Part shown: one piece after another, positions 45,250 through 46,901 of the stretch
Layout: the number at the start of each line of letters is the position of its first letter
How positions within the stretch are numbered: position 1 is the first letter of the stretch
Origin: Archangium violaceum
GTDB taxonomy: Bacteria > Myxococcota > Myxococcia > Myxococcales > Myxococcaceae
Assembly (NCBI RefSeq): GCF_016887565.1
Contig: NZ_CP069396.1
Coordinates: forward strand, 4,429,001 to 4,493,000
Direction: 5' to 3'
DNA: 64,000 nt
The notes under the pieces: generated by a model
What the model saw: the letters and a program-made list of their open reading frames with translations, nothing else
The model's database searches: none
What the model was told of the DNA's origin: nothing
Position numbers and translations under genes: made by a program

Positions 45250-45909
45250 CTACATGGCCCGCTTCTTGGCGCCGGGGGGCTCCAGGAGGCGGGCCATGGT
45301 TTTTCGTGGCGAGTCCCGGTCGTCGTCGGGGATGCGGCCGCGGCAGGCCAGCACGCGGTCGATCATCAGCTCGTGGATGTCCTGGAGGGGGCGGGCGATG
45401 TCCTCGCCCTCGAGGACGCCGAGGGCCGCGGCGATGGCCTCCAGGGTGGACATGCCATAGGGGTGGGGCGAGCGGCGCAGGCGCCGGGTGTCCGGGGCGG
45501 GAGGAGGCAGGGCGAGCCCGGGCAGGCGGCGCAGCTCTGGCAGGCGCTGGTACATGCGCCGGGCCTGCGTCCAGTTGCCGTCCAGCACCACCAGCCGCTG
45601 GGGAGGGGGCGTGCCCGGGGGAGGCGGCTGGGCATCCGGGAAGAGGAGCCAGGTGTCCGGCGCGGCGAGCACGGAGACATCGAAGGGCGGCTGGCCCGGA
45701 GCGCCGTAGGTGAGGACGCGGCAGCGGGGCAGGGCGAGCGCGGCCAGACGCGCCGTGTTGGTGGACTTGTTGGCCTCCTTGTTGTGGCGGATGACGAGGA
45801 GGTCGGTGCGGGTGTCCACCCTGGGCACGTCGGCGCACAGGCAGAAGGCGGTGGGCAGGTAGCAGGCGGGACAGCGGCCGGAGAGATCCTCCGGGGTACG
45901 AGACCTCAT
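45250..45909 (-). CDS. DTW-domain protein (tRNA-uridine aminocarboxypropyltransferase family)
   Basis: A 219-residue DTW protein. The namesake region is LDGNWTQARRM, and the second motif SPHPYGMSTLEAIAAAL is present. The N-terminus has a Cys cluster (CPACYLPTAFCLC) that probably binds zinc. Characterised members (TapT/TuaA type) transfer a 3-amino-3-carboxypropyl group from S-adenosylmethionine to uridine in tRNA. The ATG at 45909 overlaps the stop of the upstream gene. A conserved cytosolic RNA-modification role is the best inference. Confidence 0.87.
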   Translation of the reverse strand: MRSRTPEDLSGRCPACYLPTAFCLCADVPRVDTRTDLLVIRHNKEANKSTNTARLAALALPRCRVLTYGAPGQPPFDVSVLAAPDTWLLFPDAQPPPPGTPPPQRLVVLDGNWTQARRMYQRLPELRRLPGLALPPPAPDTRRLRRSPHPYGMSTLEAIAAALGVLEGEDIARPLQDIHELMIDRVLACRGRIPDDDRDSPRKTMARLLEPPGAKKRAM

Positions 45910-46451
45910 TTGCCCTGACGATAACGCTGCATGAGCTCGCGCGCCTCGCGCAGCTTGGCCTCGACGAAGCGGTCCTCGGCATCGGGCTCGTCGTCGGTCT
46001 CCAGACCGATCTGGAAGAGGGCGGAGAGGCTCGCCGGGTTGACGTCCAACCATTCGGCGGTGCGGTCGAGCACGTTGCGGCGCTGGCCGGCGAAGGTCTC
46101 GGGGCCCTCGTCGGGCAGGCAGCGGCAGATGCGGGCCGAGTCGCTGGCCACGTCCACGTAGAGGCCGAGCACCTCGGTATCCAGCTCGGTGGCGATGGCC
46201 GAGGCGACCTCGGCGACGTGGGCGGCGAGGGCGTGGGCGGCGGAACGCTCGGTCATGGAGCGGACCAGGTAGACGCGCCAGCCGGCCTCCCCGAGGGTAC
46301 CGGCGGCCTCGAGAGGGGCGAGCTCGGCGGGAGGGGCGGAGATGCGCGTGAGGACGCGGCGCACGGGGGCCTCGATGTGCTCCAACTGAGCGCTCGAGGT
46401 CGGGCAGAAGAAGACGACGCGGTACTCACGGCTGTCGACGGAGGGTTCCAT
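45906..46451 (-). CDS. conserved hypothetical cytosolic protein upstream of the DTW gene
   Basis: I recognise no family. The 181-residue protein is acidic, without signal peptide or membrane segments. It begins EPSVDSREYRVVFFCPTSS, contains GWRVYLVRSMTERSAAHALA, then EVLGLYVDVASDSARICRCL, and ends in a charged helix (DEPDAEDRFVEAKLREAREL). Its stop overlaps the DTW start (ATGA), so the two are translationally coupled. ATG 46451 has GGGAG upstream and is preferred over an in-frame start at 46499. Confidence 0.6.
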   Translation of the reverse strand: MEPSVDSREYRVVFFCPTSSAQLEHIEAPVRRVLTRISAPPAELAPLEAAGTLGEAGWRVYLVRSMTERSAAHALAAHVAEVASAIATELDTEVLGLYVDVASDSARICRCLPDEGPETFAGQRRNVLDRTAEWLDVNPASLSALFQIGLETDDEPDAEDRFVEAKLREARELMQRYRQGK

Positions 46452-46562
46452 GAGGGTACTGCTCCCGTAGGCGCAGTCGGGATCACCAAAGAGGACCACT
46501 CCCCCGGCCCTGAGCGCAAGCGGGGAATTGAGGGAGTGCGGACGGACTGCTACACGGAGCGC

Positions 46563-46901
46563 ATGTCCATCACGGTCTACATCAAGAACGGTTGAACGGG
46601 TTGTAAGTCAGCGCGGGAGTTTCTCGCGCACAAGGCAGTGAGGGCGGAGCTCCGGGAGCTGGTGAAGAAGCCGCTGAGCGAGGCGGAGGTCCGGGCGCTG
46701 GGGGCGAAGCTGGGAGGAGTGAAGGAGCTGATTGCGCCCAAGAGGAAGGCGGAGCTGGGGGCGATGGGGGAGGAAGAGCTGGTGCGACATCTGGCGGCGA
46801 ACCCGAACCACGTGAGGAGGCCGCTGATCGACACGGGGAGGCGGCTCCTGGCGGGATTCACGGCGGAAGTCCGGGCGGCACTGGAGAAAGACCTGGGCTG
46901 A
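46563..46901 (+). CDS. ArsC/Spx-like selenoprotein (in-frame TGA read as Sec11)
   Basis: A 112-residue thioredoxin-fold protein of the ArsC/Spx group whose codon 11 is TGA (46593-46595). Reading through gives SITVYIKNG-U-TGCKSAREF: the redox motif CxxC of this family with Sec in the first position and Cys14 in the second. The frame then continues uninterrupted for 101 codons with family features: LSEAEVRALGAKLGGVKELI, and HLAANPNHVRRPLID, which corresponds to the Arg-Pro loop of ArsC. Without readthrough the product would be a 10-residue peptide. A SECIS-like hairpin follows the TGA. Likely a thiol/selenol oxidoreductase; arsenate reduction is not demonstrated. SelA, SelB and tRNA-Sec genes are outside the window. 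Confidence 0.78.
46611..46629 (+). promoter_or_regulatory. bacterial SECIS-like hairpin after the TGA codon
   Basis: GCGCGGG-AGTTT-CTCGCGC folds with seven pairs (one G-U) and a 5-nt apical loop whose second base is G followed by U. The loop begins 22 nt after the TGA. Bacterial SECIS elements bound by SelB have a short stem, a GU-containing apical loop, and lie about 16-37 nt downstream of UGA within the coding sequence; all three hold. Confidence 0.65.

Follow-up and report, generated by a model that had tools for sequence, protein, structure and literature searches.

The 64,000-nucleotide stretch of the Archangium violaceum genome analysed here (the window) very probably carries a bacterial selenoprotein gene at positions 46563-46901, in which the TGA at codon 11 is predicted from comparison with relatives to specify selenocysteine (Sec). 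We take the gene to be real because all 19 subfamily members that we found share this stop. The host is a soil myxobacterium, and its genome is a single contig of 13.2 Mb. The reading frame opens with an ATG at 46563-46565 (MSITVYIKNG-TGA-TGCKSAREFLAHK) and, after the codon-11 TGA, continues for 101 sense codons up to a TGA stop at 46899-46901. The initial annotation had placed the first TGA at the first position of a redox motif and had noted the 101 codons behind it. The coordinates bear out both points, with Cys14 as the second residue of the motif (Table 1). It had also expected a gene caller to report a truncated or missing gene; a plain ORF list gives only an 87-aa frame that starts at an internal GTG. 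This shorter gene was rejected because the conserved N-terminus lies upstream of its start codon.

Table 1. Features of the selenoprotein locus, in window coordinates
Feature	Position	Strand	Conservation or remark
Divergent neighbour ORF, no Pfam match	45906..46454	-	Adjoins the Sec gene also in A. violaceum, A. lansinium and G012
CDS, ArsC/Spx-fold UxxC protein, 112 aa, predicted Sec11	46563..46901	+	Start codon at or close to this place in relatives
In-frame TGA, codon 11, predicted Sec, first residue of U-x-x-C	46593..46595	+	TGA in 19/19 subfamily members
Cys14 codon, second residue of UxxC	46602..46604	+	Cys in 19/19 subfamily members
SECIS-like hairpin, 19 nt, 8 bp, GUU triloop	46611..46629	+	Conserved codons, covariation
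87-aa ORF, GTG start inside the Sec gene, listed instead by a plain ORF search	46638..46901	+	

Conservation of the TGA and presence of the Sec machinery

The codon-11 TGA is retained down to 42% identity. The 19 members, our own included, come from 15 of 195 genomes of the phylum and from four additional metagenome-assembled genomes, and six of them belong to one genus. When the 195 genomes were searched (the best 24 candidates being scored in most genomes), 84 had a match at 1e-10. Fifteen scored 156-183 bits, and each of these has a single TGA; the runner-up, at 57 bits, has none. A scan of the contigs of named genomes returned 13 loci, comprising eight on contigs already found, four new members (L059, L063, L064 and L066) and L067, an NF041106-type planctomycete protein that exceeds the cut-off of that family with 90.1 bits. 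Within a set of 78 related genomes, 44 have a match, which contains an in-frame TGA in 14 (13 of the window's subfamily, plus G070, which is nearer to NF041106) and none in 30; 16 of the non-TGA loci were inspected and carry Cys. None of the 78 has both a TGA match and a non-TGA match at E <= 1e-3. Counted by genus, the split is 7 against 18 of 44, with a hypergeometric value of 0.017 that ignores kinship. The single PF03960 match in the own genome is the part of the Sec gene behind the TGA. Viral contigs gave 16 pattern matches, none of them a relative, and the matches in 4 phage and 8 plasmid records all fall below 30% identity.

Residue 11 of homologues had been expected to be Sec or Cys, and this holds outside the subfamily as well. 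The eight matches of the NF041106 type include five with TGA (L016, L067, L114, L115 and L116) and three with Cys (L113, L117 and L119), the last of which scores 43.9 bits to NF041106 and has no in-frame stop. No Cys member was found among the 19 of the window's clade.

These comparisons bear on two readings in which the TGA does not encode Sec. If the gene were a degenerate pseudogene or contained a sequencing error, the TGA would be a genuine stop, translation would be limited to the 87-aa ORF, and the split would be the one that the mechanical ORF list shows. We nonetheless regard this reading as practically dismissed. Chance or sequencing error is ruled out by an identical TGA in 19 genomes, the conserved N-terminus shows synonymous substitutions ahead of the TGA, and a pseudogene is rejected because the downstream frame is under purifying selection (dN/dS 0.09-0.45 in 15 Archangium pairs). 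Insertion of another amino acid, with the hairpin merely promoting readthrough, is highly improbable: the stop codon of the Sec gene is itself a TGA, some relatives have Cys at the position, and the Sec machinery is present.

All four genes of that machinery, whose existence the initial annotation had deduced, were recovered from the own genome: selA (575 bits), selB (328 bits), selD (379 bits, with one in-frame TGA) and a tRNA-Sec (73.2 bits) for which ARAGORN gives the anticodon tca. Likewise, selA, selB and selD exceed their cut-offs in 13/13 subfamily genomes of the 78-genome set, and the tRNA-Sec exceeds its gathering score in 12 of the 13, G072 (570 contigs) being the exception. The machinery is necessary yet not discriminating, since selA is above cut-off in 65 of the 78 genomes. 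Motif searches did not find a SECIS hairpin in the own-genome selD, and therefore the selD call rests on its in-frame TGA. The genome also contains a frame that resembles formate dehydrogenase and has an in-frame TGA codon within QARI-U-HSST. In addition, a 92-bp perfect direct repeat that makes up most of the tRNA-Sec gene occurs in copies about 22 kb apart (C1:5182915-5183007, L102; C1:5204985-5205079, L101), with a phage-integrase gene near one copy and transposase genes nearby. This arrangement suggests that a mobile element has inserted into selC.

A hairpin conserved behind the TGA

Comparison across relatives, rather than the fold of a single sequence, is what decides on the hairpin, and at the sequence level it shows a structure conserved as RNA 15 nt past the TGA (spacer, 46596-46610). 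The 7-bp stem with a GU-containing 5-nt loop that had been described as starting 16 nt after the TGA was located at 46611-46629. The best fold of 40-50-nt stretches has 8 bp and a GUU triloop, and differs from the version with 7 bp and an AGUUU loop solely in whether an A-U pair closes. The bacterial SECIS element is defined as a hairpin that closely follows the TGA and presents a G in its small apical loop (PMC1088965), and the hairpin of the window has this position and this loop. Taken alone, it is unremarkable (-13.9 kcal/mol, z -1.31; 21/200 shuffles fold equally well), and the lowest-energy fold of 60- and 80-nt stretches is a different one.

Among the 19 members, the codons that form the hairpin hardly vary: Ala GCG (19/19), Arg CGG (18/19), Glu GAG (18/18), Phe TTT (17/19), Leu CTC (18/19) and Ala GCG (19/19). 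At the Glu codon, 18 members have Glu and one (L059) has Gly. The most frequent codon makes up a fraction of >=0.88 at 6/6 hairpin positions versus 4/38 other conserved positions, and TTT encodes 5 of the 125 Phe residues in eight ORFs of the window. The six codons are unchanged in 15/15 Archangium pairs, for which downstream dS is 0.17-0.47. A strongly held SECIS appears to dictate both rare codons and the protein stretch AREFLA.

Covariation was counted on 19 of 24 Sec sequences (16 rows of the clade and 3 of the sister clade). L056, L070 and L073 were omitted as identical to rows used, and L115 and L116 because their stem lengths differ, although each of the two forms a hairpin whose loop contains GUU. 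Of all cells, 98.7% retain pairing. Two-sided compensatory changes occur at 3/8 pairs, a number that 0/500 shuffles reach and that slid registers (0 or 1) do not attain, with the caveat for this tool that related rows may exceed every shuffle even without structure. Only one such pair lies within the window's clade, where A-U becomes G-C in L059 together with the change from Glu to Gly in the protein. The sister clade contributes C-G to U-A in L016 and G-C to A-U in L114. Two one-sided changes in L066 preserve pairing; the top pair is disrupted in L065 and the bottom pair in L067. Further pair types, one of five covariation measures, are not unusual (74/500 shuffles). Most of the same 19-nt hairpin is found in L067 and L114. 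The Cys homologues L113 and L117 do not have the 19-nt sequence, and L117 folds into a different hairpin. Such an absence is as expected after a Sec-to-Cys exchange or before a gain of Sec.

A SECIS model run against the own genome recovers the Sec gene at 64.3 bits together with 17 lower-scoring matches, the best two of which were inspected for further genes with the same SECIS. The first (25 bits) contains a long insertion and lacks a gene of this kind, and the second (17.8 bits) reads UTGC in one frame, with flanks unlike the family.

Position within the ArsC/Spx superfamily

With the TGA read as Cys, the protein passes the Pfam models ArsC (PF03960; 28 bits vs gathering 24) and Glutaredoxin (24.5 vs 22.9). 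It stays below the cut-offs of Spx/MgsR TIGR01617 (40.8 vs 75.05), of NF041106 ArsC_rel_Se_1 (30.8 vs 85; three other subfamily members score 20.5, 22.8 and 32.1) and of the ArsC equivalog TIGR00014 (23.7 vs 106.05). The fold model (pLDDT 94.4) has an ArsC/Spx fold. In structure comparisons, Spx scores level with YffB and an ArsC-related protein of Bacteroides at VIA Z 15-15.6, within a range of 12.9-15.6 for Spx, YffB and ArsC structures in which the classical ArsC of E. coli stands at about 13. By sequence profile, the nearest solved structures are those of Spx (E 5.8e-16). The original label ArsC/Spx-like thus agrees with the Pfam ArsC score and with the position of Spx as the closest match in sequence and one of the closest in fold.

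A 36-row tree that leaves out L119 separates the other seven NF041106-type matches from the 19 members by a branch with 100/99 support, and Spx together with the YffB-like proteins by one with 84/90. Support is too low (53/47) to place the two groups relative to the 19, the program flags long branches, and the tree is rooted for display only. On this basis, we call the Myxococcota clade of the window a putative, uncurated new subfamily of a known kind, the Sec-containing ArsC-like proteins, and not a new kind. We call it new because it falls below the NF041106 cut-off and is not named in the literature covered.

Arsenate-reductase-like selenoproteins, a UxxC form among them, were reported in 2005, 2006 and 2008 (PMC1088965, PMC1794560, PMC2398784), the GOS survey lists a UxxC 'arsenate reductase 2' (PMC2398784), and a 2026 review assigns the UxxC arsenate-reductase-like selenoprotein to NF041106 and the UxxS arsenate reductase selenoprotein to TIGR00014 (PMC13188914). 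Other selenoproteins of Anaeromyxobacter are listed in PMC1794560. No myxobacterial Spx-like selenoprotein was found in the covered parts of the open-licence literature, including PMC13188914, PMC2398784, PMC1794560, PMC1088965 and PMC9312934.

The NF041106 type shares with the window protein the ArsC fold, the UxxC motif and a TGA followed directly by a hairpin. However, it forms a separate clade and, unlike the clade of the window, has Cys members. The UxxS selenoprotein likewise has Sec at the ArsC cysteine position but differs in its motif. Other Myxococcota have Cys-containing ArsC-family proteins that we name YffB-like, by eye and by fold to 1rw1, with which the window protein shares its fold (Z 15.4). 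Nevertheless, they carry Cys instead of Sec, belong to a distant clade and do not co-occur with the Sec protein in any of the 78 related genomes. Spx of B. subtilis (PDB 1z3e and others) resembles the window protein in fold, in the position of the CxxC motif and in several functional residues, but has Cys instead of Sec and a longer chain. If the assignment is right, large-genome myxobacteria gain a selenoprotein subfamily that lies outside the curated models searched and is split by ORF lists. Moreover, because no Cys member was found in it, the subfamily may provide a test case for what selenium does and sulfur cannot.

Proposed function and neighbourhood

Within the near-certain claim of a selenoprotein gene, a general seleno-oxidoreductase is the function that we favour, with somewhat better than even confidence. 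As in established bacterial Sec decoding, SelB and Sec-tRNA(Sec) would bind the hairpin and insert selenocysteine at the TGA. The product would be a thioredoxin-fold oxidoreductase of the ArsC/Spx type. Its Sec11 selenolate might attack an oxidised substrate, Cys14 might resolve the adduct as a selenenylsulfide, and thioredoxin or a small thiol might then reduce the latter.

A redox-controlled regulator of the Spx type, which would bind the C-terminal domain of the RNA polymerase alpha subunit through a Sec-Cys rather than a Cys-Cys switch, is an unlikely alternative, although Spx is the nearest solved relative by profile. Sec11 and Cys14 take the places of C10 and C13 of Spx, and the residues at other Spx positions are mostly the same or alike in the 19 members (G52, Gly in 15; R60, Lys in 18; K62, Lys or Arg in 19; R92, Arg in 18). 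Against it, the TIGR01617 score is low and the chain of 112 aa is shorter than the 131-132 aa of Spx. The own-genome alpha subunit has Ala at the presumed position of the Spx-contacting Tyr263 of B. subtilis. A regulator of this type is less likely because of this substitution. The tyrosine contacted by Spx (Y263) is stated not to be found in Gram-negatives (PMC2801614).

A role as a classical ArsC-type arsenate reductase that depends on Sec is similarly doubtful. The Pfam ArsC match and the similarity to the E. coli ArsC structure speak for it, whereas the TIGR00014 score is far below cut-off, Spx profiles fit better and no arsenic gene was recognised among the neighbours (4 Pfam-scanned, the others by eye). 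The general seleno-oxidoreductase is preferred on account of the Ala at the alpha Tyr263 position and of a neighbourhood that gives no substrate. A broader proposal, to which we give little credence, is that this clade of the ArsC/Spx superfamily is Sec-only and so far confined to Myxococcota, that Sec is obligatory in it, and that the protein is an Spx-kind redox switch that replaces the Cys-containing ArsC-fold protein of related genomes.

Across 15 sequences (the window and 14 loci, with ORFs picked by a home-made rule), no neighbour is common to all and no shared one points to a substrate. An operon-based assignment of function was dropped, as the neighbours are not common to all 15. Near relatives share some neighbours, namely the Archangium loci and G012 and, by eye, L062 with L065, L063 with L064, and L060 with L106. 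In the window, a DTW-domain gene (45250-46053) adjoins the divergent ORF listed in Table 1. In one Myxococcaceae assembly (L057, 4001-4327), the Sec gene is flanked by genes that resemble nuoK and nuoJ by eye and runs antisense to them, and selB is on the same contig.
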